From Oscillibacter valericigenes (GTDB taxonomy: Bacteria > Bacillota > Clostridia > Oscillospirales > Oscillospiraceae), in contig NZ_JAFBIQ010000019.1 in the NCBI RefSeq assembly GCF_021531315.1, forward strand, positions 1 through 39,071: 39,071 bases of DNA, read 5' to 3'. Both the position numbers and the translations under genes were made by a program. The notes under the pieces were generated by a model, which had not been told where the DNA came from, did no database searches, and saw only the letters and a list, made by a program, of their open reading frames with translations. The first letter of the stretch is position 1. Each line of letters opens with the position of its first letter. Of this stretch, positions 20,267-39,071 are shown piece after piece.

Positions 20267-20281
20267 CTTTTCTCTCCGTCC

Positions 20282-27606: not shown

Positions 27607-27626
27607 GGGCGGCATTTCTGCCGCCC
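27607..27626 (-). terminator. Terminator ahead of the transposase gene
   Basis: GGGCGGCA / TGCCGCCC with a 4-nt loop. On the minus strand it is followed by TTTTGTC. It should keep transposase expression low by stopping readthrough from the RHH operon. Confidence 0.7.
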
Positions 27627-27636
27627 CTGCCGATAG

Positions 27637-27822: not shown

Positions 27823-27826
27823 TTTG

Positions 27827-27913: not shown

Positions 27914-27954
27914 GCTCCATTGACGTTAAGCGTTTTTTGTGTTATACTTATCAA

Positions 27955-27979
27955 GGCAAGGGGGATTTCTCCCCCTGCC
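27955..27979 (-). terminator. Hairpin between the 42-aa and 28-aa peptide genes
   Basis: GGCAAGGGGGA / TCCCCCTGCC with loop TTTC and one bulged A. It has no T run on the minus strand, so it is more likely a partial terminator or stability element directly after the 42-aa gene. Confidence 0.4.
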
Positions 27980-27981
27980 CG

Positions 27982-28110
27982 TTACCTTGTCAGCTTTTCT
28001 ATCAGAAGAAGAATTGCAATTACAAGGTTTACGATCGCGGTAATAAGATTGATTGTGCTTGCTGGCTGGTCTTTCTTATTGCCGCTTTTCTTTTGCTTTT
28101 TCTTGCTCAA
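27982..28110 (-). CDS. Small single-span membrane peptide, 42 aa
   Basis: Residues 1-15 are almost all Lys/Ser/Asn/Gln, followed by one hydrophobic helix (INLITAIVNLVIAILLLIEKL, split at about 20-40). The start is TTG at 28110 with GGAGG 8 nt upstream; a longer frame to 28164 would overlap the promoter. It is the first gene behind a perfect consensus promoter with a palindromic spacer. Similar tiny basic-plus-helix peptides are common in Clostridia phages, but I cannot name a function; a membrane-active toxin or holin-like role is possible. Confidence 0.6.
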   Translation of the reverse strand: MSKKKQKKSGNKKDQPASTINLITAIVNLVIAILLLIEKLTR

Positions 28111-28135
28111 CGTCTTAACCTCCTTTCTGTCTATT

Positions 28136-28164
28136 ATTATACTATATACGTGCGTATATGTCAA
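28136..28164 (-). promoter_or_regulatory. Perfect consensus promoter with palindromic operator
   Basis: On the minus strand, TTGACA (28159-28164), 17 bp, TATAAT (28136-28141). The spacer holds a 7-bp dyad with a 2-bp centre, ATATACG-TG-CGTATAT on the plus strand (28144-28159). That is an operator-like site placed where a bound repressor would block RNA polymerase. The RHH protein of the same operon and the nearby Xre protein are candidate repressors. Confidence 0.75.
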
Positions 28165-28221
28165 TAGTCTTTGCGAAAAAAGCAGAAAAAAATAAGCGGC
28201 GACGGGATCACCCCGCCGCCG

Positions 28222-28467
28222 TCATTCGTCTATGCCTAAAAGCCATTGCACCGAAACGCCCAGCACTTCCGCAAATATCTTCAATTCAAAGTCGGATACG
28301 AAGCGCGTACCGATTTCAATTCGGCTTATGCTGTCCCGCTCCATGTTGATCCCTTTCAACTGTATTTGTGCGGCTAAATCCTCTTGACGTAGCCGCCGGA
28401 CGACGCGCGCTTCGCGCAATCGGTCGCCGCAAATGTTCTTTTTGCCGTTGTAATCATATATCTTCAT
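28222..28467 (-). CDS. Xre-family HTH repressor
   Basis: 81 aa. The HTH_3 domain has LREARVVRRLRQEDLAAQIQ, then MERDSISRIEIGTRFVSDFEL and a closing LGVSVQWLLGIDE, the standard cI/Xre layout without a separate C-terminal domain. A GAGGG lies upstream at a long distance from the ATG, so initiation may be weak. It is divergent from the + membrane gene at 28629, and a candidate promoter (TTTACA-17-CAGAAT) lies in the shared intergenic region. It is probably the element's maintenance repressor. Confidence 0.85.
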   Translation of the reverse strand: MKIYDYNGKKNICGDRLREARVVRRLRQEDLAAQIQLKGINMERDSISRIEIGTRFVSDFELKIFAEVLGVSVQWLLGIDE

Positions 28468-28531
28468 TGCCGCCGCGTTCCCTCTTCATTCTGATTATTT
28501 GCAAACGGTGTGTAAATATTCCGCTTTATTC

Positions 28532-28560
28532 TTGATTTTAGCGTATGACGGGCGTATAAT
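28532..28560 (+). promoter_or_regulatory. Strong promoter of the divergent membrane gene
   Basis: TTGATT (28532-28537), 17 bp, TATAAT (28555-28560). It is one of only two rightward promoters in the element and leaves a leader of about 60 nt. Confidence 0.75.
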
Positions 28561-28628
28561 TGTGTTAAAGGTCAGAATAGGCGAATTCTGCCTTGAAAAT
28601 TTACATTTAAGAAGGGGGATTTGCTCTA

Positions 28629-28934
28629 ATGTTCGTCAGCTTTACAAAGACATTGAAGAAGATGTCCGGTTTCCGGCTGGGCTTCGGTGTGCGCGTGAAT
28701 AAGCGAAACGCGCCGTTGTGGTGCTTCGCTATGCTCTTCGCCGGAATGTTCTATTTGATGTGGTATATGATTATCGGCGCGGGCTGGTGTCTGTACTTCT
28801 TCTTGTGGGCGTTTTACAAGATTTATTACTATCTATTCAAGGGAATTGCGGTCGGCTGTAAGAAGCTGTATCAACTCATTAAAGGAAAAACCGCCGCGCC
28901 GTCGGAAGCGTCGGTCGAACCGCCGAAGGAATGA
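28629..28934 (+). CDS. Membrane protein encoded against the element's main direction
   Basis: 101 aa. A basic N-terminus of about 28 residues is followed by two adjacent hydrophobic segments rich in aromatic residues (about 30-50 and 52-72, with MFYLMWYMII and CLYFFLWAFYKIYYYLF), then a Lys-rich tail. GAAGGGGG is 9-10 nt before the ATG. It is expressed from its own strong promoter opposite the repressor, and so probably in the dormant state. That arrangement is typical of lysogenic-conversion genes such as superinfection exclusion. I do not recognise the family; the role is inferred from position only. Confidence 0.7.
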   Translation: MFVSFTKTLKKMSGFRLGFGVRVNKRNAPLWCFAMLFAGMFYLMWYMIIGAGWCLYFFLWAFYKIYYYLFKGIAVGCKKLYQLIKGKTAAPSEASVEPPKE

Positions 28935-28946
28935 ACCAAACAAAAA

Positions 28947-28985
28947 AATCCCCCGTGCAAGGCTCGAAAGCCCGCACGGGGGATT
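28947..28985. terminator. Bidirectional terminator after the membrane gene and the lysis cassette
   Basis: AATCCCCCGTGC (28947-28958) pairs with GCACGGGGGATT (28974-28985), with an inner GGCT/AGCC helix. On the minus strand it is followed by seven T, which makes it the strong end of the lysis operon. Confidence 0.88.
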
Positions 28986-29039
28986 GTTCTTTATGCGGCG
29001 GAAGGCTGAAAGGGGAAGCGCGATCCGCCGCGCGGTCAA

Positions 29040-29381
29040 TTACTCTTTGTTGCTGTCGGTATCCGCCGGAATGCCGGAAATAGTGAAGTAGTCCGGAAGA
29101 TTAAAGACGGCGGCTTCGATCAGTTTATCCAGCGTTTCCGCGTCGATCTTGAAGCCCTTGCTATTCAGAAATTCAACGACGTATGCTTTCTTCTCTGCGC
29201 CCCTGCCGCTTCCGGTGTAAAGCTGTTCGGCGGCTTCGACGGCAACCGTTACCCACATTTTGATTTTCTCAAACTGTGCGGCGGTCGTCTTGCTTCTGAT
29301 CCACGGGATCACGAAGGCGGTAATAATAGCCGCGATAAGAGCGATCACGGCGTTTGCAATGCTGGTAAGATCAATAGTCAT
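29040..29381 (-). CDS. LL-H-type phage holin
   Basis: 113 aa. One N-terminal helix (about 8-27, ANAVIALIAAIITAFVIPW) is followed by a soluble part with KIKMWVTVAVEAAEQLY and KKAYVVEFLNSKGF, which match the Phage_holin_6_1 (LL-H) family. Holins form membrane lesions that release the endolysin. It overlaps the preceding membrane gene by 11 bp and ends the lysis cassette. Confidence 0.82.
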   Translation of the reverse strand: MTIDLTSIANAVIALIAAIITAFVIPWIRSKTTAAQFEKIKMWVTVAVEAAEQLYTGSGRGAEKKAYVVEFLNSKGFKIDAETLDKLIEAAVFNLPDYFTISGIPADTDSNKE

Positions 29382-29679
29382 TGTTTGTATCCTCGCTTTC
29401 TGTTATGTCGATTTTTTCTTTTTTCTTGATCCTGCCGACGATTACTTCGGCAAGACGCTTCATCATCATTGCGCCGCATTCGATCACGACGGCGCGGAAA
29501 TACCATTCGATCAGAACGGTTTGTTCCTGCCGCGTGATAAGGAATGAAACGTACTGTGCGACGATGAAAGCCGCCGTTGTAATTGCGATCACAATAACGG
29601 CTTTCGTTGCGAAGCGTTCGTCAGCCTTGAAGAAGCGGCGCTTCGCCACCCGCTTCCCGCTCGAAGGTTTGTTTTTCAT
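29371..29679 (-). CDS. Two-helix membrane protein of the lysis cassette
   Basis: 102 aa. A basic N-terminus is followed by a helix at about 27-48 (AVIVIAITTAAFIVAQYVSF), a second weaker helix at about 58-78, and a charged tail (GRIKKKEKIDITESED). AAAGGGGG precedes the ATG. It sits between the amidase and holin genes, so it may be a second holin or an antiholin. I do not recognise a named family. Confidence 0.7.
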   Translation of the reverse strand: MKNKPSSGKRVAKRRFFKADERFATKAVIVIAITTAAFIVAQYVSFLITRQEQTVLIEWYFRAVVIECGAMMMKRLAEVIVGRIKKKEKIDITESEDTNNDY

Positions 29680-29730
29680 TGCGTCCCCCTTTCATAGCGC
29701 AATTAACGCACGGCGCGCGTTGTGCGTGTG

Positions 29731-30735
29731 TTAAACAAGCGTTAGATCATCGACGTTCACCGCCGCGACAACCGTTCCGCCGTAGGTAATCACGGCGCGC
29801 TTTCCGGAAAGCTCTTTGACGACGTGATCGCGGGAATAGACGAAGGAAGCAAGGCTTCCGCCGGAATAGGTTTTCGCGCCCGCTTTCACGCGCACTTTGC
29901 TTCCCGTTGTGATCTTCCGCGCCGATGTCCCGCCGGACGTGCCGGAATAGGTAATGAAAGCGTCGTCGTGTCCCGCCTTCTTCAACTTCTCCAGCATAGC
30001 TTCCGCGTTCTTCTTGACGCTGAACGCGCCCACTTGAACCTTGTAAAACTTGCCGATCTGCACGATGTAGGTATCGAAGCCTTCCTTTTTCAGCTTCGCC
30101 GCGAACGCTGTTGCGTTGTCCTTCTTCTCAAACGCTCCAAGCTGGACGCGGTAAAGGTTCTTCGCGTCGCCCTGCGGCTTCTGCTCCGGCTTCTGTTCCT
30201 CTGCCGGAACGCCCAGCCGCCTGTTTACCTCCGCCGCGATCTCGCCGTGTCGGTTATACAGATAATCGCCGGGGCAAGACTTGTTCGCGTAATCCCTGTG
30301 AACGGTCATATTGCACCCGTTCTTGTGGTTTACGCGGTCGTCTTTGCTTGTACTCCATACCAGCTTTTTGATCCCGTTCCGGCGGCAAATATCTTCGACA
30401 AGATCAAGAAGCGCCGCGTATGCTTTATCATTCACGGCGTATGGGTGCTTTGTGTCGCTTGCAACCTCGATCGTGATTGCGCGGTTATCGTTCGCCGCCG
30501 AAGAACTGCACCACGAACGATCGGCTTCATCGACGTAAAGCCCGATCCGCCCGTCGTAGCCGATCCCGTAGTTTGAACTCGCCTGTCGCGAAGTCGGCTT
30601 GAAGATTTCGCCGATCCTCTCGGCGGAACATTGCCCGACGACGCAATGAATTGTGATCGTGTCGATCTTGTGATTTCGTGGGCTGTTCTTGTTCGGCGAA
30701 ATCAGCGTACACGAAATAAGTTTGCTATTGCTCAT
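29731..30735 (-). CDS. Endolysin: N-acetylmuramoyl-L-alanine amidase with SPOR repeats
   Basis: 334 aa. The amidase_2 domain occupies about 20-175, with zinc ligands His30 (TITIHC), His146 (TVHRDY) and Cys154 (KSCPGD); Glu90 fits the catalytic position. A Pro/Glu/Gln linker leads to two SPOR-like repeats within about 192-265 (LYRVQLGAFEKKDNATAFA, FYKVQVGAFSVKKNAEAML) that bind glycan. An SH3-like C-terminus follows. No signal peptide is present, as expected for a holin-dependent lysin. AAAGGAGG precedes the ATG. SPOR domains suggest activity on denuded septal-type peptidoglycan. Confidence 0.9.
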   Translation of the reverse strand: MSNSKLISCTLISPNKNSPRNHKIDTITIHCVVGQCSAERIGEIFKPTSRQASSNYGIGYDGRIGLYVDEADRSWCSSSAANDNRAITIEVASDTKHPYAVNDKAYAALLDLVEDICRRNGIKKLVWSTSKDDRVNHKNGCNMTVHRDYANKSCPGDYLYNRHGEIAAEVNRRLGVPAEEQKPEQKPQGDAKNLYRVQLGAFEKKDNATAFAAKLKKEGFDTYIVQIGKFYKVQVGAFSVKKNAEAMLEKLKKAGHDDAFITYSGTSGGTSARKITTGSKVRVKAGAKTYSGGSLASFVYSRDHVVKELSGKRAVITYGGTVVAAVNVDDLTLV

Positions 30736-30789
30736 TGCTGAACCCTCCTTTGCAATGAAGAAGCGGCGGGGAAGCCCCCGCCGCTGGTG

Positions 30790-31089
30790 TTACTCTGCTT
30801 GATCCATTCGTTTTTCGATGTGGTCAAGCCGCTTGTGTGCCTGTTTCGCCGACGCTTCAACGTCGGTCAAGCGCGTTACGAACTCCGTATTCGTCTTTCG
30901 CTGTTCCTTCTGCTCCGCCTTGATTTCGTCCGTGTTCGCCTTGATGTATCCGATCTCGGTTAAAACGGTCGCGTCGTGCTTCACGTTGCTTTCCTTGTCC
31001 TTGTCCCTGTTACGAACAAAAGCGATATAGCCGAACACGATAGCGCATACGGTAGAAAAGACGGAAAGAACCGTTGTGAAAGTGTCCAT
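30790..31089 (-). CDS. Membrane-anchored coiled-coil phage protein (XhlA-like layout)
   Basis: 99 aa. The N-terminal helix (about 5-24, TTVLSVFSTVCAIVFGYIAF) is followed by a long charged coiled coil (DEIKAEQKEQRKTNTEFVTRL and later heptads to the end). Proteins of this plan lie next to holin and endolysin genes in many Firmicutes phages. AGGAGG is well placed. It is 54 bp upstream of the amidase gene and probably co-transcribed with it. Confidence 0.75.
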   Translation of the reverse strand: MDTFTTVLSVFSTVCAIVFGYIAFVRNRDKDKESNVKHDATVLTEIGYIKANTDEIKAEQKEQRKTNTEFVTRLTDVEASAKQAHKRLDHIEKRMDQAE

Positions 31090-31110
31090 CGTTGATCCTC
31101 CTTCCTGCCG

Positions 31111-31572
31111 TTATGTTATCTCTTCCCACTTCGTCGAATTGACGCGCGGGGAATAGACGGAAGATTTGAAGTGCTGGGCGACGCATACCCACTTCTTCCC
31201 GTTGTGCGTTACCTTTGTTCCCTCCGTGATTACTTCGCCGTCCGGAAGGTCAGCCCATGCGCCGATTTGCTCTTCGGTCGGTGTAAGCGTCCATTTGTCC
31301 GGATTTGAAGCAGGGGATTTCCCACGGCTGTAATGCGTCGCCGTGTAGCTCACGCCGTCAAGCGTTACCACGTCGCCCGTGATATAGCTTTTCTTCTCGT
31401 TCCACTCTTCGCCTTGCTCCGGAATAGAAACAAGGTTATTGCGGATACTCGAAATAATGCTTTCTTCGGTTTCGGTGCGGGCGGCTTCAACCTCCGCCAT
31501 GATCGAAGCGCGTAAGGCTTCAAGCTCTGCCGCGCCGATCTGCTTTTCGCTCTTCTTGTGTGTTACGCTCAT
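31111..31572 (-). CDS. Tail-type carbohydrate-binding protein
   Basis: 153 aa. An N-terminal helical part (about 10-45) is followed by two chitin-binding-like modules: EEWNEKKSYITGDVVTLDG..SPASNPDKWTL (about 55-95) and a second around WADLPDGEVITEGTKV..SPRVNSTKWEEI (about 105-153). Such modules occur at the ends of phage tail proteins that contact the cell surface. GGGGG lies 8-9 nt before the ATG. It is the only tail-related gene left in the element and may be the remaining end of a tail module. Confidence 0.65.
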   Translation of the reverse strand: MSVTHKKSEKQIGAAELEALRASIMAEVEAARTETEESIISSIRNNLVSIPEQGEEWNEKKSYITGDVVTLDGVSYTATHYSRGKSPASNPDKWTLTPTEEQIGAWADLPDGEVITEGTKVTHNGKKWVCVAQHFKSSVYSPRVNSTKWEEIT

Positions 31573-31633
31573 TCAAAATTACCCCCGATCCCCGATACCC
31601 AGCAAGCTGTCAGCGCGTCGCCGCGCTGGACGG

Positions 31634-31816
31634 TTACGCTTCTTCATCGGCTACAAGCGCCGCCAGCTTCTTGTAGTTATACAGCAATTTTTCCATTGCC
31701 TTGAAGTAATTTACGTACCCCGTGTTCTGTGTGTATGCTTCCGCCGCCCCTGCGCGCGCGGCTTCAAATACGGCTTCCCGCAACTCTTCGGAAAGCTCTG
31801 TTTGCTTTTTAGTCAT
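31634..31816 (-). CDS. Short regulator-like phage protein, 60 aa, possibly truncated
   Basis: The sequence TKKQTELSEELREAVFEAAR and NYFKAMEKLLYNYKKLAALV resembles the N-terminal helices of ArpU/RinA-type late-gene regulators. Those proteins are much longer, with a sigma-like helix-turn-helix that is absent here. GGAGG is 9 nt before the ATG, which overlaps the VRR-NUC stop. It sits exactly where a phage would begin its packaging and structural genes, and the next gene is already from the end of a tail module. The truncation reading is inference; resemblance is moderate. Confidence 0.6.
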   Translation of the reverse strand: MTKKQTELSEELREAVFEAARAGAAEAYTQNTGYVNYFKAMEKLLYNYKKLAALVADEEA

Positions 31817-32201
31817 GTGTGCCACCTCCGGTTAGATATTCAATAATTGTTCCCGCCGCCTGTTCCCAGCCGTAGCAAAGCGCGGCTTTGTAGCCCTGCG
31901 CCGAAAGAGCGTCCAGCCACTCCGATTGATGATCGCTTGTCCTGCCGCCGCGTTGCCGTTTAAGCTCTATGTAAAGCCCATGATACCGCCCGCGCGCGAC
32001 TGGCAAGCATAGATCGGGAACGCCCGCTTTCACGCCCTCCGCCCGAAGCCGTCCCGCTTCCGCCTTGTGTCTGCTCCCGCCGTTCGGGACGTGATAAAGC
32101 AAATTCAATTCGGGATATTTCCCGCTTTGCATAGCCGCCCACGAAAACAGCGTCATTTGCTCTTGCGCTTCCGTCGGAACGGGCATTTTATTTTTCTGCA
32201 T
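31809..32201 (-). CDS. VRR-NUC domain nuclease
   Basis: 130 aa. VRR-NUC is a small PD-(D/E)XK nuclease domain found alone in many phages. The core is visible: VPNGGSRHKAEAGRLRAEGVKAGVPDLCLP (split in two strands), then LYIELKRQRGGRTSDHQSEWL, with the catalytic D in VPDL and E-x-K in IELK. GGAGG lies 9 nt before the ATG, inside the end of the DUF4406 gene (14-bp overlap). It probably acts on recombination or replication intermediates. Confidence 0.88.
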   Translation of the reverse strand: MQKNKMPVPTEAQEQMTLFSWAAMQSGKYPELNLLYHVPNGGSRHKAEAGRLRAEGVKAGVPDLCLPVARGRYHGLYIELKRQRGGRTSDHQSEWLDALSAQGYKAALCYGWEQAAGTIIEYLTGGGTHD

Positions 32202-32517
32202 TCTGTGATCCCTCCCGTTCCCAATCAGCGAAGAAGAAAAACGGCTTGTTCTGCGCCATTGCTTCGCCGAATTCATATTTCGCGCCTTTGCTCTCTTTCC
32301 AGTCCGGAAGAAAACAGACTTCGGCGCACTCTGCAAGCATAGCGCCGGACATACGCATATAGGCTTCCCACGTGAAGCCCTCCGCCGGAAGAAGCGCCGG
32401 ATTTACGACGATGAAGCCGCCTTCCTCCAGCTTCTTTTGTGCGTTGTAAAACTTCGTGAAATAATACGGATCGCCCGTGATCTTTCCGGCAAGATATAGC
32501 GTCCTTTTTTCCTGCAT
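32188..32517 (-). CDS. DUF4406 protein (nucleoside deoxyribosyltransferase-like)
   Basis: 109 aa. LYLAGKITGDPYYFTKF, VVNPALLPAEGFTWEAYMRMS and KGAKYEFGEAMAQNKPFFFF match DUF4406, a phage-rich branch of the nucleoside 2-deoxyribosyltransferase-like fold. The Tyr/Gly N-terminal motif and Glu-containing YEFGEA are the expected active-site region. GGAGG is 7-8 nt before the ATG. The biochemical role is unproven; it may act on phage nucleotides. Confidence 0.8.
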   Translation of the reverse strand: MQEKRTLYLAGKITGDPYYFTKFYNAQKKLEEGGFIVVNPALLPAEGFTWEAYMRMSGAMLAECAEVCFLPDWKESKGAKYEFGEAMAQNKPFFFFADWEREGSQNAEK

Positions 32518-32531
32518 TGTGTTTCCTCCCT

Positions 32532-33227
32532 TCATTTCGTAAAAAGCGTTACTTGCGCTTTCCGTTCTTCCTGCTCCAAGAGATCAAAAAGCCGGATTTG
32601 TGCTTGTTCCTGTTCCAGCCGTTCATTTGCCGCGCGGCAATAATCTTCGTCGATCTCAAAGCCGACGAAATCAAGCCCGCCTTGACGATAGCAAGCGATC
32701 AAGGAACTTCCGCTTCCGGCGTGTGTGTCCAATATCTTCATACCTTTTCGGGCGAAGAGGGAAAGAACCCACGAATACAGCTTCACGGGCTTTTGTGTCG
32801 GGTGAATTGTCCCGTCGTTCAGCAATTCAACGCGATTGCAGACAAAAACGCGCGTCGGCGTGTCGAAGCTGGTATACGCTAATTCGCAATCGCTCATTGT
32901 CAAGCCGTGTTGCCCCTTGTCCCATACAAGCCAGCCTTTATGTCCTTGTTCAAGATACGGAACGAAGTAATTTCCGCCCCATATCACTTGTGCTTTTGAA
33001 ACGCGTTCCAATTCGCGGAAGTATTCGGGCGGGGGAATAGCCTTGTCCCAGCTTTTCCGGATATGCTCTTTCCGGTTATGCTTCGGATTGCCGCATACGC
33101 GCTTCTTCTGTCCGTCTATGCCGATACCGTAAGGCGGATCAACGATCGCAAGATCGAAGAAGCCGTCCGGAAACTCTTTCATTCCCTGCATACAGTCCAT
33201 GTTATACAGCTTGTTCAATTCAAGCAT
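32532..33227 (-). CDS. Site-specific DNA methyltransferase (beta-class N4/N6 type)
   Basis: 231 aa. Catalytic DPPYGIG begins at residue 30, HPTQKP lies at 142-147, and the S-adenosylmethionine motif DTHAGSGSS (usually DxFxGSG) at about 167-175. This order is that of beta-class adenine or cytosine-N4 methyltransferases. No restriction enzyme gene is nearby, so it is probably a solitary phage enzyme that masks element DNA from host restriction. AAGGTG is 8 nt before the ATG. It lies after the large palindrome that follows rep. Confidence 0.92.
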   Translation of the reverse strand: MLELNKLYNMDCMQGMKEFPDGFFDLAIVDPPYGIGIDGQKKRVCGNPKHNRKEHIRKSWDKAIPPPEYFRELERVSKAQVIWGGNYFVPYLEQGHKGWLVWDKGQHGLTMSDCELAYTSFDTPTRVFVCNRVELLNDGTIHPTQKPVKLYSWVLSLFARKGMKILDTHAGSGSSLIACYRQGGLDFVGFEIDEDYCRAANERLEQEQAQIRLFDLLEQEERKAQVTLFTK

Positions 33228-33263
33228 ACGTTGTTCACCTTCTTTCTTTTTCTCCCCCCTCCG

Positions 33264-33278
33264 CCCCCCGATGGGGGG
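33264..33278. repeat. C6-GAT-G6 hairpin upstream of the methyltransferase gene
   Basis: CCCCCC-GAT-GGGGGG, a short, very stable stem in the same non-coding gap as the large palindrome. It has no T run. It could be part of a single-strand origin or just a leader hairpin. Confidence 0.4.
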
Positions 33279-33352
33279 AACGGGCTTAAAGGAATAAATC
33301 TATCGGCGATCCAGCGGGCTTCCTCGATCCGTGTTCTGAACCGATCCTTCAC

Positions 33353-33504
33353 GATTGATTTTATATCCCCGCCGCCTTCCCGCTTTTATCACTCCCGCGC
33401 TTTCATTATCAAGGGCAAGCGGCTTCGCCGTGCTTCGCACCCTTGACAATGCGCGCGTTCGTGATCTCTGAAAAGCGGGCGACGGGGAATAAATAAAATC
33501 AATC
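33353..33504 (-). other. Large imperfect palindrome with a CTTGATAAT motif: candidate rolling-circle origin
   Basis: This fills most of the 354-bp gap between rep and the methyltransferase gene (33228-33581). Outer arms: GATTGATTTT (33353-33362) with AAAATCAATC (33495-33504); next CCCCG..CGCTTTT (33367-33387) with AAAAGCGGG..CGGGG; then ATCAC/GTGAT and GCGC/GCGC. The inner hairpin is ATTATCAAGGG (33405-33415) with CCCTTGACAAT (33440-33450), capped by CGGC-TTC-GCCG. The minus strand of 33405-33413 reads CTTGATAAT, which matches the nick region I know from pC194-type plasmids and resembles phiX174 (CTTG/ATA). I see no coding potential here. Confidence 0.6.
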
Positions 33505-33581
33505 TTCCGGAAGGAAAAGCGCTGGTCGTAAAACTTTACACATTTACAAGGCTTTTTATTGCGCCCCTTCGGGCGTTCCCG

Positions 33582-34322
33582 CTATTCGCGTTTCTTCCGG
33601 CGTTTCGGTTTCTCCGGTTCGCGTACATATTTATAATATATGTAGCCCCACTTTGTCGCGCGGGCTTCCACCAGCTTGTAGCCCTTCGGCGCGATCGGTG
33701 CTTTCTTTTCCGTATACGTCCGAAGTGCAAGCGTCGGCGCTTCCTTCTCCGGCTGGCGAAGATTGCGCGTCGCCTTCCAACGGTGTCCGCCCTGTTCCGG
33801 TGTCCAATGGTTGAAGAGGTAATCCGCAAGCCCCGTGTAATCCTGCCCGTAGTCAACGCCGTTATAATAATTGTGTTCGCGCAAGTGCCGAATATGGATT
33901 ACTGATCCGTCGTTCCACTTGCCGCTGATCGTTTCTTCCGGTATGCCGTCCGAAATCATGTGAAAATGAATTCGGTTCGTAGACTTGCCGCGCCCCATGT
34001 AAATAATGATCTTCGCGTCGGGACAAGCCCTTTGAAGCCGCCGGAAGTAATTATCGCGTATTCTGCGCGCTTCGCTGAATGTATGAACTTCGCTGTCGTC
34101 GTCGAACGTCAGCGTACTATATAAGGAAAGCGGCGAAAAGTTTTCATTTACCAGCCGCTGGTGTTTCCGTTTTGATATGCCGATCCGGTGTTGCGCGCGC
34201 TCTTCGTCGTCCTTGAAGCGCTGGCGCGGTTCAGCCTTCTTTATGTTCGCTCGATCGGATACGGTGTAAACCTCTTGTTCACATACAACGCCCGAAAAAA
34301 TACGTCTTTTAACCCTCTGCAT
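33582..34322 (-). CDS. HUH-endonuclease Rep (rolling-circle replication-associated, ORF2/G2P-like)
   Basis: 246 aa. Motif 1 is SLYSTLTFDDD (about 66-76). The metal-binding HUH motif is IHFHMI, with His119 and His121. Catalytic tyrosine candidates are Tyr162 and Tyr168 in DYTGLADYLFNHW. The tail is very basic (KPKRRKKRE). Such enzymes nick one strand at an origin and stay bound to its 5' end during rolling-circle replication. The ATG at 34322 has a purine-rich AAGGAAGGG region upstream; an in-frame TTG lies at 34346. The leader is covered on the opposite strand by the small RNA at 34375-34453, and the candidate origin lies 80-230 bp downstream. Confidence 0.82.
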   Translation of the reverse strand: MQRVKRRIFSGVVCEQEVYTVSDRANIKKAEPRQRFKDDEERAQHRIGISKRKHQRLVNENFSPLSLYSTLTFDDDSEVHTFSEARRIRDNYFRRLQRACPDAKIIIYMGRGKSTNRIHFHMISDGIPEETISGKWNDGSVIHIRHLREHNYYNGVDYGQDYTGLADYLFNHWTPEQGGHRWKATRNLRQPEKEAPTLALRTYTEKKAPIAPKGYKLVEARATKWGYIYYKYVREPEKPKRRKKRE

Positions 34323-34339
34323 AATCCCGCCGCCCTTCC

Positions 34340-34368
34340 TTGACAAAAGCGCCGTAAAATGCTATAAT
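34340..34368 (+). promoter_or_regulatory. Perfect consensus promoter of the small RNA
   Basis: TTGACA (34340-34345), 17 bp, TATAAT (34363-34368), with TGC before the -10. It has full consensus in both boxes plus an extended -10 and reads rightward, against rep. The predicted transcription start is near 34375. Confidence 0.88.
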
Positions 34369-34374
34369 TTTAAT

Positions 34375-34390
34375 ATTGAATAGCTCCTTT
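34375..34390 (-). repeat. SD box copy 1 (rep leader, overlaps the small RNA)
   Basis: On the minus strand this reads AAAGGAGCTATTCAAT, shared with copies at 35620-35634 and 38256-38271. Here the following codon is ATT rather than ATG, and a 22-codon frame runs into the rep start. It could be a relic or weak leader peptide. Confidence 0.7.
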
Positions 34391-34407
34391 TACAGCTTTG
34401 TAAGAGG

Positions 34408-34449
34408 AAAAGAGAACGTCCGGAACGTCGCAACCGGACGTTCTCTTTT
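34408..34449. terminator. Bidirectional terminator of the small RNA and the early operon
   Basis: AAAAGAGAACGTCCGG (34408-34423) pairs perfectly with CCGGACGTTCTCTTTT (34434-34449), 10-nt loop, followed by TTG and more T on the plus strand. It ends the small RNA (+) and also the leftward early operon just after the Cys-rich gene. Confidence 0.9.
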
Positions 34450-34457
34450 TTGTTTTG

Positions 34458-34850
34458 TCAGCCGTTATTAAATCCTGCGCCCTGCTCGAAGTCGGCGCAC
34501 CGTTCTTCTTCACAAGGTTTGAAGCGCATTCCGTCCGCGCACCCGACGCAAGGGAACGGGCGTACCCCGTCCGGAAGCGCGCCTTCGCGTAAGTGAACGC
34601 ATTGTTCCAGCTTCGCGCATTGATCGCACCAGCACTTCCGGCAATCGCCGATCAGCGTTTTTTCAACCGGACGTTTCAAGCCCTCTTCGGCTTCCTGCTC
34701 ATCGTGTTCTTCCTGCATTTCCCGCGCCGCCTGTTCGATCGTGTAATCTTCAACGCCGTTCATAATGCCCCGAAAGAAGGGCGCGAACGCGTAGCCGATC
34801 CCAAGCCCTGCGCGCAAAAGCATTTCTTCGTCGATCTTAATATCTGCCAT
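34458..34850 (-). CDS. Cysteine-rich phage protein, function unknown
   Basis: 130 aa. The N-terminal half is mostly helical and acidic (EDYTIEQAAREMQEEHDEQEAEEG). The C-terminal half has ten cysteines, in CRKCWCDQCAKLEQC, FPCVGCADG and KPCEEERCADFEQG, probably one or two zinc sites. I do not recognise it. Its start overlaps the small membrane gene by 14 bp; a GGAGG lies about 11 nt upstream. It is the last gene of the early operon before the terminator. Confidence 0.75.
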   Translation of the reverse strand: MADIKIDEEMLLRAGLGIGYAFAPFFRGIMNGVEDYTIEQAAREMQEEHDEQEAEEGLKRPVEKTLIGDCRKCWCDQCAKLEQCVHLREGALPDGVRPFPCVGCADGMRFKPCEEERCADFEQGAGFNNG

Positions 34851-34983
34851 TGTTCCCGCCGCCCCTCCGAAGCGCTCTAAAAAGCACGTTCAAAACGATG
34901 TAGACGATCACAACGGAAGCGGCGACGCAAGCAACGCCGCAAAGCATATAAAAGGCGTTCACCATGAATTGATACATTGTCAT
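34837..34983 (-). CDS. Small membrane protein, 48 aa
   Basis: A gene too short to stand out in a routine scan. It begins MTMYQFMVNAFYMLCGVACV, has one long hydrophobic helix (about 8-36) and a basic, Gly-rich end (LRRGGGNNGRY). Its ATG overlaps the stop of the DUF3310/DUF6273 gene (ATGA) and its end overlaps the next gene by 14 bp, the tight packing expected of a real phage gene. The codons match its neighbours. I can name no family. Confidence 0.65.
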   Translation of the reverse strand: MTMYQFMVNAFYMLCGVACVAASVVIVYIVLNVLFRALRRGGGNNGRY

Positions 34984-35864
34984 TCGTCAGCCCTCCCGAA
35001 TACCTCTTCCGCGTCGATGTCCCACGCGGCGGCAATATGCTTCATCATATCGACGGCTTCGGCTCGCTTCTTCTGTTCCTCTGCGTTCTCTCCGTTTAAG
35101 TACGATACCAAGATTTCAGATTTGAGATTGCAAAGCGGGCGAACGCCAGCGTCGCCGTTGTACGCGTCGCTGCTGTTCAACGAGCCGTCCGAATCGACGA
35201 TGCGGACGTAAGAGTTTGTCGGGCTATCCGGTGTTGCCGTCCACCACCAGCGATCCGGAAGTGCCGGAATGTTGCCGCGCAAAAGGCGGTATTCTTCGCA
35301 AGTGATAAGCCCGATCCGGACGCGATCGCCGCCGTAATTCTTCAAGCCGTCGTCGGCGGTCAAGTCGATGTTGAAATACTCGAACATTTCTTCCGGCGCG
35401 CCCGCCTTAACCAGACGGCGGAAGAAGTCGCCGTTCAGATAGGCACGAAGGGAAGAAACGGCAAAGTCGTTCTTGTTCTCTTCATCGAAGGCGCGTTCCT
35501 CGACGCAATCGGAAGCAATGCACTTCACCCAATCCGCGCCCGTCTGAATGACCGTCCAAGCGATCCCGCCCATTGTGAATTCCTGTTTCGGCTCGAAGCC
35601 GTGTTTGTTCTCTTTCATGTTGAATAGCTCCTTTCCTGCGGCGCTGTCTGCGCCCGCTCGTTGAATAAGTCTGTTGATATACCAAACCGCCTTTTGCAAG
35701 TCCTCTTCACCGTTTTTCAGCTTCCAGCGCCATAAATACTTGATCGCGTTCGCTGTGCAAAAGGCTTCGATACCTTGAAGCCCGCTTGTTGCGGCTTCCA
35801 GCGCGTCGATACACTCAATCCCGCCCGCGTTATAATGCGGCGGGTGGTTCACCCGCTCCGCCAT
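34980..35864 (-). CDS. DUF3310 domain joined in frame to a DUF6273-like domain, with an internal start
   Basis: 294 aa. Residues about 1-70 are DUF3310, often called a phage nucleotide kinase-like domain (VNHPPHYNAGGIECIDALEA, ANAIKYLWRWKLKNGEEDL, AVWYINRLI). Residues about 90-270 are a DUF6273-like, possibly C-type-lectin-like domain (WTVIQTGADWVKC, RWWWTATPDS, YVRIVDSDGSL, DAGVRPLCNL). At the join, AAAGGAGCTATTCAAC precedes an in-frame ATG at 35618. The second domain can therefore also be made alone (212 aa). That SD is an exact target of the small RNA at 34375. The start at 35864 is preferred; a GTG at 35873 overlaps the MazG-like gene. Confidence 0.8.
   Translation of the reverse strand: MAERVNHPPHYNAGGIECIDALEAATSGLQGIEAFCTANAIKYLWRWKLKNGEEDLQKAVWYINRLIQRAGADSAAGKELFNMKENKHGFEPKQEFTMGGIAWTVIQTGADWVKCIASDCVEERAFDEENKNDFAVSSLRAYLNGDFFRRLVKAGAPEEMFEYFNIDLTADDGLKNYGGDRVRIGLITCEEYRLLRGNIPALPDRWWWTATPDSPTNSYVRIVDSDGSLNSSDAYNGDAGVRPLCNLKSEILVSYLNGENAEEQKKRAEAVDMMKHIAAAWDIDAEEVFGRADE
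35620..35634 (-). promoter_or_regulatory. SD box copy 2 (internal start of the DUF6273-like domain)
   Basis: The minus strand reads AAAGGAGCTATTCAA, then C and the ATG at 35618. It is identical to the 15-nt box at 38257-38271 and complementary to the 5' end of the small RNA. It lies inside coding sequence and is read there as KELF. Confidence 0.75.
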
Positions 35865-35866
35865 GA

Positions 35867-36199
35867 TTAACACTTCTTGCCGCCGTGCCGATACGGGCGG
35901 CTTTTGTTGTATTCGTGCTTCTGTGAGATCGCCGCGTCAATGTCGATCCCTGCGTATCCGCAATAATCAAGAACGCGAATAATCACGTCCGCAAGCTCCG
36001 TCGGGATACCTTCGGGCTTGCCGCTGTCGCTGAAATAGATTTCCGTTGCGCCGCGCCCGTTGCGGTATTCCTCCAGTGCTTCGGATACCTCCGAATGAAT
36101 GAGCGCTAAAACCTCCGGAAAGCCGCGTTGTTCGTCCCACCAGCCGTGCGCGACGGCGTTTTCGTGAATTTCCTTTGCAACCTCGTTAATTCCTGTCAT
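35867..36199 (-). CDS. MazG-like NTP pyrophosphohydrolase
   Basis: 110 aa. The all-alpha NTP-PPase signature is present: LIHSEVSEALEEYRNG (E-E pair of the first metal helix) and IPTELADVIIRVLDYCGYAGID (second E-x-x-D helix), ending KHEYNKSRPYRHGGKKC, as in phage MazG-like proteins. These hydrolyse nucleoside triphosphates, which may clean nucleotide pools or lower (p)ppGpp. A GAGGG lies about 10 nt before the ATG. It overlaps the zinc-ribbon gene upstream by 14 bp. Confidence 0.9.
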   Translation of the reverse strand: MTGINEVAKEIHENAVAHGWWDEQRGFPEVLALIHSEVSEALEEYRNGRGATEIYFSDSGKPEGIPTELADVIIRVLDYCGYAGIDIDAAISQKHEYNKSRPYRHGGKKC

Positions 36200-36530
36200 T
36201 GTCTTTTTCCCTCTCTTTCAATTCATTTTCGGCGTTGTCGTCGGCTTCCGCCGCGCGGCAATCGCACTTTTCGCCGTAGTCAAGATGTGCGCCGCAATGC
36301 GGGCATTCCTTGTATGGTGTCGCCATGTCGTTCTCCTTCTTGATAATCAGCCGCCGGAAGCCGTCGGCGCATAGCGTCAAGCCGTGTTCCTTCACGTACT
36401 CCCGCCGCCGTGCGGCTTCTGCCGCTTCCCAGCCGCAAGAAGCGCATTCCGAAGGCTTGCATTTCTGCGTTTTCTCCGGATCAATGCCCAGCAAGCACTT
36501 CAAGGGCGGCTTTTCCTGTCGGTTATTCAT
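36186..36530 (-). CDS. Zinc-ribbon phage protein with an internal start
   Basis: 114 aa. The first part has CLLGIDPEKTQKCKPSECASCGWEAAEA (a Cys cluster, about 12-39), then an Arg-rich helix. The second part starts at an in-frame ATG at 36326 that has GAAGGAG 7 nt upstream, and holds a compact zinc ribbon (ECPHCGAHLDYGEKCDC). Two small genes may have joined, or two products may be made from one frame. It overlaps its neighbours on both sides. I do not recognise a function; nucleic-acid or protein binding is the usual use of such ribbons. Confidence 0.72.
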   Translation of the reverse strand: MNNRQEKPPLKCLLGIDPEKTQKCKPSECASCGWEAAEAARRREYVKEHGLTLCADGFRRLIIKKENDMATPYKECPHCGAHLDYGEKCDCRAAEADDNAENELKEREKDNDRN

Positions 36531-36753
36531 TCTTCACCCGCTTTCCGCACGAAGGGCAATAATTGAGCGGGTAGCCCTTGCCGTCCTTCATGTAATCCGT
36601 TGTCCGTCCGCATTTGCGCCCGTTTACTACTGCGTAGGAAACAAGCGCGGCGGATAAAGCCATTCCGAACCCTGCGGGCTTGCTGTGGTGTTCTTCAATG
36701 AACCGTTGAAGCGCGATCGCTTCGCAAAACGGGCATTTCTTTTTATCGCTCAT
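36523..36753 (-). CDS. Small zinc-ribbon phage protein, 76 aa
   Basis: CPFC near the start (residues 7-10) and CPSCGKR near the end are the two halves of a likely zinc site around a hydrophobic middle (GFGMALSAALVSYAVV). Its ATG overlaps the stop of the Dam-like gene (ATGA), and its end overlaps the next gene by 8 bp. The function is unknown; its appearance recalls the Lar/restriction-alleviation type of small phage zinc proteins, but this is weak. Confidence 0.7.
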   Translation of the reverse strand: MSDKKKCPFCEAIALQRFIEEHHSKPAGFGMALSAALVSYAVVNGRKCGRTTDYMKDGKGYPLNYCPSCGKRVKNE

Positions 36754-37201
36754 TCCTTCACCCGCTCCCCGTTATAGATAACTACCATTGAAGGGAAGGG
36801 CGCGGGATCGGCGGCGTTCCCGTCGTCGTCCGTGAACCGTAGCCGCCCGCGCACGAAGCGGATTTCCGCTTTCCCGTAAATGTAATCGTGAAAATATGCC
36901 GTATCCGTCCGCGCTGGGATAAGTAAAACAATCGGATACCCCCCCCCCGCGCTTCCTCGAAAGCCTTTTGAACCCACTTGCCGATCTCGCGTCCGTAAGG
37001 CGGATTGCAGAATACCGCGCCGCCGCGATCCCAGCTTTGCGAAAGCCCGTCCGTTTCCGGTGTGTAATACAAAGAGCATTTCGCCGTCTTGTCGGTCGCC
37101 GCCGGATCAAGCACGAAGCCGAATTCGGCGTTCAGCTTGTCGAAGAAGTCTTGCGGCGTACACCAGCACATATTTTTAGAGGATAGAAGCGCCGCGTTCA
37201 T
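36750..37201 (-). pseudogene. Dam-like phage DNA N6-adenine methyltransferase, frame broken at a G10 tract
   Basis: The first part (from ATG at 37201) reads WCTPQDFFDKLNAEFGFVLDPAA, CSLYYTPETDGL, the catalytic FCNPPYGREIGKWVQKAFEEARGGG and then shifts frame. The continuation, PIVLLIPARTDTAYFHDYIYG and RLRF..PFPSMVVIYNGERVKE, lies in another frame. The break is at ten G on the coding strand (C at 36939-36948). Eight or eleven G would restore one protein of about 150 aa, the normal family size. It could be a slipped-strand ON/OFF switch, a true mutation, or a sequencing error. Its start and stop overlap the neighbours by 4 bp (ATGA at both ends). Confidence 0.8.
36939..36948 (+). repeat. Homopolymer tract of ten C inside the methyltransferase gene
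   Basis: Ten consecutive C on the plus strand (G on the coding strand), the only such long tract I saw in the window. It sits exactly at the frame change of the Dam-like gene. Confidence 0.9.
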
Positions 37202-37872
37202 TCGTCCGCCACCTCGCTTTCCTCGACAACCTCGCCCGTGTCCGGATCGACGTTCAAGGAACATTGTTCCGGCTCTGTGAATGTGAAGCGGTCGCGGGCT
37301 TCGCGTTCCCTGCGTTCCTTTTCAGAAAGGGAAAATTCGCATTCCCGCGTTAAGCTCTGCAAGCTCTCCACGAACTGCTGATTGATAACGTCATAAGGCA
37401 TAATCACCGCTTGAAGCAGGAAGCCCGCCTTCGCGACGATGTAGGGCGCTCCCTCCGCCGTGCGGCGTTCGTAAAGCTCCAGCACGTCCAGCACGTCAGC
37501 AACGGGCGAAAGATAGCGGCTTTCGATGAATACCAGCCCGCGCGTTGTGCGGATCGGCTTCAATGTTCGTCCGGAATAGATGATCGAAATTCCTTCCCGC
37601 TCGACGTGCCTTTCCGTTTCGTCTGTGTCCTCGAAGCTGATACCCACCGGAACGCCCAGCGTTTTCACGAAGTAATTATCGCGGTCTTTCTCCGGAACGT
37701 CGAAGATCGTCAAAAGGCTTTCTTTGTCAAGCTGGGGAAGCCCGACAACCGGATAAACCGCCGATCCGTCGCCGATGTACTGCGTTAATATGTCGCCGTC
37801 GTCGCTGTACCGCTCGAAGATTGCAATATTCTTGTTCTTCTTGCAGATAGCGGCGATACTTTTAATCTTCAT
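37198..37872 (-). CDS. Phage protein of unknown function, 224 aa
   Basis: A soluble mixed alpha/beta protein beginning MKIKSIAAICKKNKNIAIF. Conserved-looking stretches are LPQLDKESLLTIFDVPEKDRDNY, GISIIYSGRTLKPIRTTRGLVFIES and GFLLQAVIMPYDVINQQFVESL, followed by an acidic tail (DPDTGEVVEESEVADE). A GGGGGTG stretch precedes the ATG, which overlaps the zinc-ribbon gene by 11 bp. It lies in the early block, so a role in element DNA metabolism or regulation is possible, but I recognise no family. Confidence 0.75.
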   Translation of the reverse strand: MKIKSIAAICKKNKNIAIFERYSDDGDILTQYIGDGSAVYPVVGLPQLDKESLLTIFDVPEKDRDNYFVKTLGVPVGISFEDTDETERHVEREGISIIYSGRTLKPIRTTRGLVFIESRYLSPVADVLDVLELYERRTAEGAPYIVAKAGFLLQAVIMPYDVINQQFVESLQSLTRECEFSLSEKERREREARDRFTFTEPEQCSLNVDPDTGEVVEESEVADE

Positions 37873-38254
37873 CTTCGCACCCCCACTTGATAGCCTGTCC
37901 GCATTGCCCGCAAAAAGCGTTTTCGTTTTCGTCTGCGTTGTGCAGATATTCACCGCTTCCGCAATTCGGGCAAGCCATAACGCCTTTGTCCCCGTCCGGA
38001 TACGGTGAAGCGGGAATGTTGAGCGCGTCCGCGTCGTGCCGTTCCGCATTGTCCGAAATGTCAACGCGGGGAACGCGGATCGCCAGCGCGATTTGGCAAC
38101 CGCAAATCGGGCAATCAACCGCCGAAAAGCGCGTCGGCGCTTTCGTCAGCATATCCGCCATAGAACGCGGTTCTTCCGCCGTGTAGATGTTTTCCCGCTC
38201 CGGTGTGAAGCGATAGCCGCAAACGCGGCATTCTGTCTTTTTCTTGCTGAACAT
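37862..38254 (-). CDS. Zinc-ribbon protein, target of the small RNA
   Basis: 130 aa with four CxxC pairs: CRVCGYRF (about 7), CPICGCQ (about 50), CPNCGSGEYL and FCGQCGQAIKW near the end, making probably two zinc ribbons. The start ATG at 38254 has AAAGGAGC with the full box AAAGGAGCTATTCAAT, which is the exact 16-nt complement of the small RNA made from 34375. Base pairing would cover the SD and block ribosome entry. The frame is open further upstream, but this SD fixes the start. The molecular function is unknown. Confidence 0.78.
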   Translation of the reverse strand: MFSKKKTECRVCGYRFTPERENIYTAEEPRSMADMLTKAPTRFSAVDCPICGCQIALAIRVPRVDISDNAERHDADALNIPASPYPDGDKGVMACPNCGSGEYLHNADENENAFCGQCGQAIKWGCEDED

Positions 38255-38255
38255 A

Positions 38256-38271
38256 ATTGAATAGCTCCTTT
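38256..38271 (-). promoter_or_regulatory. SD box copy 3 (zinc-ribbon gene)
   Basis: The minus strand reads AAAGGAGCTATTCAAT, then T and the ATG at 38254. It is the longest perfect match (16 nt) to the 5' end of the small RNA at 34375-34390. Confidence 0.78.
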
Positions 38272-38279
38272 CGTGTGAT

Positions 38280-38504
38280 TTAATATTTACCGTAGACGCG
38301 GACGGCGGTTTTCCCGCCATGCGTCGCCGCCGATACGATAGCCGAAGGCATAAAGGAAACGCGCAAGAAGTCCCGCGCGGCGCGCTTCGCAAGCCGCCAT
38401 GTAATCAACTTCGCGTTCGGCTCTTCCGCCGCCGTGTCGTCGATCGGATATTCGCAAATAAGCACGGTGTTTCCGAACGGGCGACGCGCCGGACGTTCCT
38501 TCAT
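38280..38504 (-). CDS. Small phage protein, 74 aa, first gene of the element
   Basis: KERPARRPFGNTVLICEYPIDD and a later basic helix (ITWRLAKRAARDFLRV) make a plausible folded protein, and codon use matches the neighbouring element genes. The ATG lies about 19 nt from the nearest good SD (AAGGAGG at about 38523-38529), which is too far. A TTG in another frame (38514) is better spaced but gives a protein that looks unnatural. The start is therefore uncertain. I do not recognise the family. Confidence 0.6.
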   Translation of the reverse strand: MKERPARRPFGNTVLICEYPIDDTAAEEPNAKLITWRLAKRAARDFLRVSFMPSAIVSAATHGGKTAVRVYGKY

Positions 38505-38553
38505 ATCCGTTCAATGTTTTAACCTCCTTCCGCCTGCCTTCGGATAAAAAAAT

Positions 38554-38588
38554 AATGCAGGAAAAACCGTAACGGTTTCTTCTGCATT
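38554..38588 (-). terminator. Terminator or attenuator at the element's right end
   Basis: AATGCAG..AACCGT / ACGGTT..CTGCATT, an 18-nt imperfect stem. On the minus strand it is followed by ATTTTTTTA. It lies upstream of the first element gene, so it either blocks transcription coming in from the right (the integrase-remnant side) or attenuates the element's early transcript. Confidence 0.65.
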
Positions 38589-38604
38589 TAATGATACTCT
38601 CAAC

Positions 38605-38622
38605 AAAGTTCTCAACACAGCG
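38605..38622 (+). repeat. Right 18-bp direct repeat of the inserted element
   Basis: AAAGTTCTCAACACAGCG, identical to 26467-26484. It ends 9 bp before the -35 box of the tRNA-Val promoter. A partial second copy (CTCAACAAAG) precedes it within the element. Confidence 0.75.
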
Positions 38623-38631
38623 AAAAAAGTG

Positions 38632-38660
38632 TTGACAAACGGCAGGTGATGCGTTAGTAT
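38632..38660 (+). promoter_or_regulatory. Promoter of tRNA-Val
   Basis: TTGACA (38632-38637), 17 bp, TAGTAT (38655-38660), 15 bp upstream of the mature tRNA. Confidence 0.8.
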
Positions 38661-38675
38661 AGTCGTGTTCGGTCT

Positions 38676-38751
38676 GCGCGGTTAGCTCAGCTGGTAGAGC
38701 ACATGCTTGACGTGCATGGGGTCACAGGTTCGAGTCCTGTACCGCGCACCA
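38676..38751 (+). tRNA. tRNA-Val (anticodon GAC), CCA encoded
   Basis: 76 nt including CCA. The acceptor stem GCGCGGT (38676-38682) pairs with ACCGCGC (38741-38747). The D arm contains AGCTCAGCTGGTAGAGC, the anticodon stem CATGC/GCATG encloses TTGACGT with anticodon GAC, and the T arm has GGTTCGAGTCC. Discriminator base A and CCA follow. It is a host gene with its own promoter and terminator; the element stops just upstream and leaves it intact. Confidence 0.97.
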
Positions 38752-38753
38752 CG

Positions 38754-38791
38754 AAAAAAGCCTTGAAACTCAACGGTTTCAGGGCTTTTTT
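38754..38791 (+). terminator. Terminator of tRNA-Val
   Basis: AAAAAAGCC-T-TGAAAC pairs with GTTTCA-G-GGCTTTTTT around a 6-nt loop, ending in six T, directly after the tRNA. Confidence 0.85.
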
Positions 38792-38828
38792 GCTGCCCTG
38801 AAACGCCATTTACCCTTTATCGTACCCT

Positions 38829-39008
38829 TTATAAATTGAGAACATTTGTAATGAAGCCTTCCATACGCTGCGCGCTGACCGAGCGCATATCGTCTGTAAA
38901 ATGACCGTAGACATCAAGAGTGAAAGCGGCGGTCGCGTGACCGAGATTGCTTTGCACAGTTTTGATATCATCACCGGCGCGGATGCAGTTCACGGCGTAG
39001 GTATGCCC
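38829..39008 (-). pseudogene. C-terminal remnant of a tyrosine integrase
   Basis: 59 codons are left. HTYAVNCIRAGDD, VQSNLGHATAAFTLDVYGH (conserved His and nucleophile Tyr) and RMEGFITNVLNL match the C-terminus of phage and ICE integrases common in Clostridia. The frame is closed just upstream by TAA (39009-39011), before the usual DLR that precedes HT, so the N-terminal part is lost or non-homologous. It lies outside the direct repeats and beyond the tRNA, so it comes from another element that once used the tRNA-Val locus. Confidence 0.75.
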
Positions 39009-39071
39009 TTACGGTATAATTACGACAAACCGGAAAAGCCCCGTATATCAAGGGTTTTCGGTTATCTGGCA

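Follow-up and report, generated by a model that had tools for sequence, protein, structure and literature searches.

The locus described here raises the question of what a short RNA gene is doing in the antisense orientation just upstream of the replication gene (rep) of a prophage. The first-pass annotation of the window (the whole stretch of Oscillibacter valericigenes DNA analysed, 39,071 nucleotides) had proposed that the RNA acts in trans on the Shine-Dalgarno sequences of several genes of the element, and also in cis on the rep leader to set copy number. Judged from sequence, the product of the locus is quite probably a trans-acting antisense RNA of the phage, which would block the translation of early genes carrying a complementary tag at their ribosome-binding sites (RBSs). 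An RNA aimed at the Shine-Dalgarno sequences of several phage genes found strong support at the level of seed classes, but the copy-number part of the proposal did not.

The small RNA gene

A promoter of the form TTGACA-17-TATAAT, with a TG preceding the -10 and 12 of 12 matches to the sigma-70 consensus, lies at 34340-34368 on the plus strand. It is the top scorer among nine promoter-like sites in a scan of 29000-39071, and the same full score was obtained for the corresponding units of the relatives L004, L007, L032, L033, L042, L089, L113 and L114. The predicted RNA of about 80 nt (34374-34453, plus strand) is antisense to the gap between the gene at 34458-34850 and rep. The fold predicted for 34374-34455 has an energy of -36.3 kcal/mol (z -6.95), and none of 200 shuffled sequences was equally stable. 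It comprises a first hairpin (34385-34408, plus strand) that contains the anti-Shine-Dalgarno bases and a terminator hairpin with its T-run (34409-34453, plus strand), in which a 16-bp inverted repeat lies ahead of the T-run. The perfect promoter, the transcript of about 79 nt and the 16-bp-stem terminator claimed in the first-pass annotation were thus borne out as predictions, and the unit has the promoter of its own and the intrinsic terminator expected of a trans-acting base-pairing sRNA.

The 5' part of the RNA (34375-34390, plus strand) consists of a seed, ATTGAATAGC, followed by the anti-Shine-Dalgarno TCCTTT, and is complementary to both tags found in the window. In the predicted fold the seed core is unpaired with a probability of 0.99, the value for the following 7 nt being 0.05. 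An RNA with a free seed and a hidden anti-Shine-Dalgarno would be expected to spare ordinary RBSs.

Tagged ribosome-binding sites in the window

The complement of the RNA 5' part, AAAGGAGCTATTCAA, occurs exactly at 34376-34390, 35620-35634 and 38257-38271, always on the minus strand. No fourth match was found in the window with up to three mismatches, a setting at which 3 of 100 shuffles gave at least three matches, and the exact 15-mer has no copies beyond these three in the host genome (2.48 Mb, 98.9% complete). Both distant copies are RBSs immediately 5' of a minus-strand ATG, one at 38254 and the other at 35618. The first belongs to a gene for a zinc-ribbon protein of 130 aa (37862-38254, minus strand; PF08271, E 5.6e-05 for the longer frame, under the curated cut-off), which starts with a Shine-Dalgarno. 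Here 16 nt of the tag (38256-38271, minus strand) are complementary to the RNA, confirming the earlier claim for this gene.

The second tag (35620-35634, minus strand; 15 nt complementary to the RNA) precedes a gene for a DUF6273 protein of 212 aa (34980-35618, minus strand; PF19789, E 8.5e-13). This position had been described as an internal start; the exact 15-nt tag stands, but a separate gene apparently begins at this site. The phrog_9958 alignment begins at residue 1 of the short form of the protein, and in L084 only five in-frame codons are open upstream of that start; in phage nd12, L004, L082, L032 and L105, 106 codons of the longer frame are open, as in the window. It had also been argued that such matches at two distant RBSs are very unlikely to arise by chance. 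The matches are real and unique in the host genome, but two sites alone are thin evidence, and the weight of the case therefore rests on the relatives of the element.

The host prophage and phage nd12

The RNA gene is located in a prophage related to phage nd12 (26467-38622), with 18-bp direct repeats at both ends (AAAGTTCTCAACACAGCG; 26467-26484 and 38605-38622). An IS30-type transposase gene (26536-27615) adjoins the end repeat and probably serves as the recombinase. A tRNA-Val gene (anticodon gac) was observed at 38676-38751, about 53 bases past the right repeat. Phage nd12 (OR777946.1, locus L158; 32,765 bp) is titled 'complete genome' in its record; according to the accessible part of PMC10743442 it is estimated at about 90% of a complete genome, a tail-sheath gene is reported, and no nd12-like prophage was found. 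It matches the window in blocks from 26472 to 38605, with about 95-98% identity in the main blocks. Missing from the window prophage are nd12 positions 2767-20805 and 26514-28808, and it is without the structural module and some of the nd12 early genes. The window element is an nd12-like prophage with large deletions relative to nd12.

Four tagged RBSs are present in nd12, two of them in a stretch missing from the window copy. The phage also encodes a transposase of a phage integration family and a CI-like HTH gene; since nd12 carries the latter, the idea of the RNA as the sole phage repressor was dropped. By eye, the nd12 circular junction (about 26399-26427) reads TTGACT-17-TATCAT, and in the integrated window copy (38590-38622) TGTGTT replaces that -35. 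An early promoter may exist in the circular phage genome only.

Target gene 2 contains a variable repeat of a diversity-generating retroelement (DGR; window 35133-35209), whose nd12 counterpart lies at 31950-32025 of L158. The nd12 template repeat and reverse transcriptase (RVT_1, E 3.1e-15) were located at 17800-19151 of L158, in a region missing from the window copy. Compared with the nd12 template, the window variable repeat has nine differences, eight of them at template adenines, and the nd12 variable repeat has 13, all at template adenines. The shared genome and the DGR-variable DUF6273 gene identify the host element as an nd12-like DGR phage. By size, domain and count of variable adenines, target 2 is probably the nd12_tgt2 of PMC10743442, which the accessible part of that paper describes as a lectin-like protein of 294 aa that has additional N-terminal sequence; the position of the tagged start argues for the shorter form. 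A scan with the target 2 protein gave 18 viral loci, all on already known contigs. For 11 of these loci, duplexes between the RBS of the probable start and the RNA of the same or a sister phage had raw energies of -19.7 to -33.9 kcal/mol, some of them with a mismatch, a bulge or a G-U pair. A recurrent DGR-variable, lectin-like target would tie retroelement diversification to RNA control.

Seed classes and the distribution of tags

Relatives were collected with the window rep as query (28 viral loci) and with an alignment of ten rep proteins, which gave 50 loci in bacterial genomes (titled as Oscillospiraceae, Clostridia and kin) and, in viral contigs, 98 loci, of which the best 80 were used. 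Many of them have the same unit of promoter, short RNA and terminator, antisense to and upstream of rep. With L001-L003 and L031 excluded, 155 loci formed 99 rep clusters at 95% identity; 14 promoter calls that looked spurious on inspection by eye did not enter the complementarity and 9-nt-match counts. Based on the seed, 11 of the 99 clusters were assigned to class A, six to class B and 11 to class C, and no RNA was found in the other 71. The class A seed is UUGAAUAGC, shared by the window, nd12, L004/L082, L007/L084, L013, L032, L033, L045, L089/L090, L098/L099, L105/L107, L109 and L114-L116. Class B, with GUAUAGCAAUC or GUAUAAGUAAUC, comprises L012/L034/L091, L014/L101, L016-L018, L026, L040, L041, L080, L106, L108, L110, L111 and L149.

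The tags follow the seeds. The A-tag was found at 14 RBSs, in eight of the 11 class A clusters and at RBSs of A clusters only, and the B-tag at 12 RBSs, in all six class B clusters and at RBSs of B clusters only; the tag patterns were derived from these same loci, the seed side being independent of them. For the three class A clusters without an exact tag, 2,395, 1,849 and 806 bases of upstream sequence are available. Neither tag was found at any RBS of the other 82 clusters (11 of class C and 71 without RNA; 1217 kb). Away from RBSs, the A core occurs once among the 71 RNA-less clusters, and the B core once, in antisense, in a class A locus. Runs of 15-18 nt complementary to the RNA are present at RBSs of the window, L004, L045, L099 (17 and 17 nt), L107 (18 and 15 nt) and L032; L091 has a run of 13 nt, and runs of 12 nt occur three times in L149 and twice in L101. 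Conserved complementarity to mRNAs encoded elsewhere, a mark of trans-acting sRNAs, is therefore present. This restriction of the tags to phages with a matching seed, and the switching of both between classes, were computed, as were promoter, fold and complementarity.

The tagged proteins of 26 chosen loci fall into 17 BLASTP groups, indicating that the tag was not inherited with one gene. Most had no named family in the domain scan; one has a weak PAPS-reductase match (E 0.0027, under the cut-off).

The tag makes a good Shine-Dalgarno, and genes are exchanged among these phages, so it might be argued that a favoured RBS cassette was simply copied before several genes, a reversed copy having landed by chance behind a promoter, with no regulation involved. 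However, the 82 rep clusters without a matching RNA have no such RBS, and most RBSs among the window starts scanned do not use it either. The same arrangement, moreover, is seen in two different seed classes, and the RNA structure has been kept. We regard this explanation as highly improbable.

Pairing energies

Ranked by duplex energy, the four tagged starts of nd12 take places 1 to 4 among 53 (-29.8 to -24.5 kcal/mol), as calculated with the window RNA, which differs slightly from that of nd12; the fifth start follows at -23.9 kcal/mol, 0.6 kcal/mol behind the fourth. Across 46 tag sites (48 rows minus two RNA self matches, several being near-duplicates), the phage's own RNA gives stronger pairing than the average of the other class at all 46, and than the average of same-class sister RNAs at 30. 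The first-pass annotation had suggested looking for seed changes without matching target changes. Between classes the outcome favours RNA-tag matching, and within a class these 30 sites make the covariation of seed and target weakly favourable.

When 60 shuffled seeds were used per locus, none reached the observed best pairing in any of the six class A loci tested. In class B, the observed value was reached by none in L091 and L080, by one in L101, and by eight, 13 and 15 in L108, L041 and L149, respectively. The best-pairing start of L080 and of L041 is not a tagged one; the L080 tags (-25.7) are still lower than every shuffle. At least one RBS match was recorded in 16 of 31 representative loci in a looser count of 9-nt matches, a result equalled by 0 to 25 of 200 shuffles.

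A second rep family and wider scans

A scan for the A-tag followed by ATG returned 35 viral contigs. Fifteen, which are AT-rich or differ from the rest in other ways, had a single match each and no visible RNA, and were taken as chance. Among the 20 remaining, which are richer in G+C, the RNA was present in nine and, through the longer piece L316, in a tenth (L294); in the other ten it was not found in the sequence examined. A tagged gene beginning MKKTALILWIVA was observed at -9315 from rep, on the strand opposite to rep, in L316, and also in L279, L286, L294 and L306.

A similar RNA was found upstream of another rep family (group D; PF23343, E 1.1e-13 for the L291 protein) in L288, L291/L315, L295/L319 and L294/L316. 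Since this group was found via the tag it is not a blind test, and three of the ten loci with a group D rep (L321-L323) have neither unit nor tag. L288 carries the seed UAGUUUGAAUAGCUC and two tags, GAGCTATTCAAACTATG; the extended tags match the extended seed, so that complementarity reaches into the start codon. One start with a 12-nt match in L316 is located on the opposite strand, which fits trans action.

A covariance model derived from 13 group A and D RNAs was run on 77 chosen sources. It matched the window at 34371-34452 with 81.6 bits (the window sequence itself being part of the model), gave a strong new class A match in L109 and a weak one in L042 of class C (27.2 bits), and scored about 18-21 bits in L297, L303, L294 and L306. 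Two matches in L048 (25.5 and 21.2 bits), downstream of rep, were dropped by eye. In the alignment of these 13 RNAs the two hairpins have 21 consensus pairs, and for 13 of them one or more double substitutions preserve pairing. Folds resembling that of the window RNA, with a free seed and a hidden anti-Shine-Dalgarno, were predicted for L082, L013, L045, L107, L090 and L291, and less clearly for L288. The seed is partly paired in L099, and no such fold was predicted for L084, L033, L115, L316 or five class B RNAs.

These data also bear on the possibility that the shared motif is a protein-binding site, either a DNA operator or the RNA operator of a translational repressor, which would control the RNA promoter as well through the copy at the RNA start. 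The CI-like HTH gene of nd12 and the overlap of the motif with the RNA start would agree with such a site. All of the A and B sites counted are directly 5' of start codons and in a single orientation, however, and some RBS variants preserve pairing with the RNA through a G-U pair or a bulge. The matching extensions of seed and tags in L288 and the compensatory changes in the conserved RNA fold likewise speak against a protein site, which we consider very unlikely.

Further scans yielded mainly rejected candidates. The promoter with the class A seed was sought in viral contigs, and the 80 listed of at least 120 matching stretches were mostly chance matches in AT-rich contigs. Among 156 added loci, the promoter-seed matches of L178, L207 and L216 were judged false by eye, and L211 is the contig of the known L114. 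A similar pattern matched in seven of 394 genomes of the order, and only the window's own genome was accepted as real; by eye, L330-L333 resemble T-box leaders and L329 a cobalamin riboswitch, and no tag was found in the 3 kb examined of L328. The tag followed by ATG was matched in three of 300 genomes of the family (G000, G070 and G142). G070 is the genome of L045, with the RNA gene and one tag, and so is not an independent case; at the G142 site, the RNA was not found in the 3 kb examined. A search for further seed classes that made no promoter assumption gave no clear new class: the own counts of L113, L146 and L150, all outside A and B, beat every swapped control, but they involve GC-rich or short words at overlapping starts. 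Positions 34300-34480 had no match at E 0.01 among 72,556 plasmids.

Control of rep in cis

The adjoining rep gene (33582-34322, minus strand) encodes an HUH-type replication protein (phrog_3584, E 1.5e-39; PF23343, E 0.00018, under the cut-off) and is untagged. A rival reading is control as in rolling-circle plasmids, in which the RNA would pair with the rep leader and limit rep, the RBS matches being secondary. In all three classes, A, B and C, the unit indeed sits upstream of rep in antisense orientation, with its -35 often about 17 nt from the rep start. Class C (L042, L044, L027/L071/L072, L028-L030/L076, L075/L077, L113, L035, L047 and L053) has promoter and terminator in this position with other seeds, L028-L030/L076 showing the promoter alone, and no RBS tags were found in its 11 clusters. 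Nor did duplex energies reveal a convincing target for its seeds; L044 has a single site that 1 of 60 shuffles matched. These units could reflect a cis role; alternatively, the position upstream of rep may be older than the tags.

For the window RNA, the claim that it governs the rep leader and copy number is without direct support. The 5' end of the RNA lies some 50 nt upstream of the rep ATG (34322), the RNA stops short of the rep RBS, and in nd12 the nine starts that pair best with the window RNA do not include rep. In group D the -35 of the unit sits 380 nt from rep in the five loci where the unit was detected, and 71 rep clusters have no RNA that could be found. Cis control would also leave unexplained why tags elsewhere are confined to phages with the matching seed. 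It is thus unlikely to be the main role of the RNA, and action in trans on the tagged genes remains the preferred reading.

Proposed mechanism and its implications

Under trans action, the RNA 5' end (seed UUGAAUAGC, then the anti-Shine-Dalgarno CUCCUUU) would pair with a tag of about 12-16 nt that covers the Shine-Dalgarno and the spacer to the start codon in several unrelated phage genes. Pairing would block ribosome binding and keep the tagged gene set down together. As the anti-Shine-Dalgarno of the window RNA is held in a hairpin and the seed alone is free, pairing would be nucleated at the tag, and opening of the hairpin would follow. Because the RNA gene is antisense inside the early cluster upstream of rep, a read-through transcript of the cluster would carry its full complement and could soak the RNA up. 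Such read-through would also collide with the RNA promoter, each holding the other down in a two-way switch. If the early promoter is confined to the circular genome, this would agree with a role of the RNA in silencing residual messages in the lysogen. Transcription, repression, timing and feedback are, in this scheme, what we infer from the arrangement.

By way of an RBS tag that they have in common, two to four or more unrelated phage genes seem to fall under the control of one RNA, and the seed/tag pair appears to have been exchanged between lineages during evolution. A possible, though speculative, extension is an RNA address code among the phages of gut Clostridia, in which a 5' seed and a movable RBS tag recruit unrelated genes, the non-matching codes (A, the two B forms and the D extension) forming an RNA layer of immunity that works with the circular-only early promoter. 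Because the codes of the lineages are mutually non-matching, an incoming phage that uses the same code would have its tagged early genes silenced by the RNA of a resident prophage, and phages with other codes would be spared. The arrangement allows direct tests of whether seeds and tags coevolve, whether genes are recruited to an RNA regulon and whether RNA sets specificity between phages.

Comparison with known systems

The RNA matches no Rfam 15 family at threshold, the only match in the window being a tRNA. The best score in 34300-34500 was that of ncr1015 (26.3 bits against a threshold of 60), and the ctRNA families were unmatched (ctRNA_pGA1, 23.6 bits against 45; ctRNA_p42d, 17.1 against 50). 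The literature searched, which mostly excluded subscription journals, yielded no account of a phage RNA for which many genes carry RBS tags.

In mode of action, the RNAs c4 of P1/P7 and sar of P22 come closest (PMC12197685). In the accessible part of that source, c4, sar, OOP, aQ and 24B_1 are phage antisense RNAs described with one phage target each. Like the window RNA, c4 is a phage antisense RNA that blocks translation around an RBS, and it has been tied to immunity differences between two phages; compared by description, it has one target mRNA (ant), against several unrelated tagged genes here (PMC12197685, accessible part). Similarly, sar (68/69 nt) and OOP of lambda (77 nt) are short RNAs pairing with a phage mRNA, but each has one phage target, ant and cII, respectively, and no tag common to many genes is described for them there (PMC12197685). 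VpdS of vibriophage VP882 does act on several mRNAs, of both phage and host; it is Hfq-bound and favours phage replication, and a tag shared by phage RBSs goes unmentioned in the accessible part (PMC12197685).

Unlike c4, the window RNA has its own promoter and terminator and is located upstream of rep. RNAs of the c4 type repress a single antirepressor gene and are processed from the same transcript as it. The window RNA does not fit this type, having its own promoter and several targets, with no antirepressor named among the tagged proteins scanned. Countertranscribed RNAs of plasmids are small antisense RNAs with a strong terminator upstream of an HUH-type rep, as is the window RNA; they act in cis on rep, whereas its seed matches other genes. 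GcvB and RsaE, which are regulators of the bacterial cell, resemble it in that one RNA serves many mRNAs by pairing near the Shine-Dalgarno. In contrast to these, the targets found here are the phage's own genes, the pairing is long, and the seed/tag pair varies by phage lineage.
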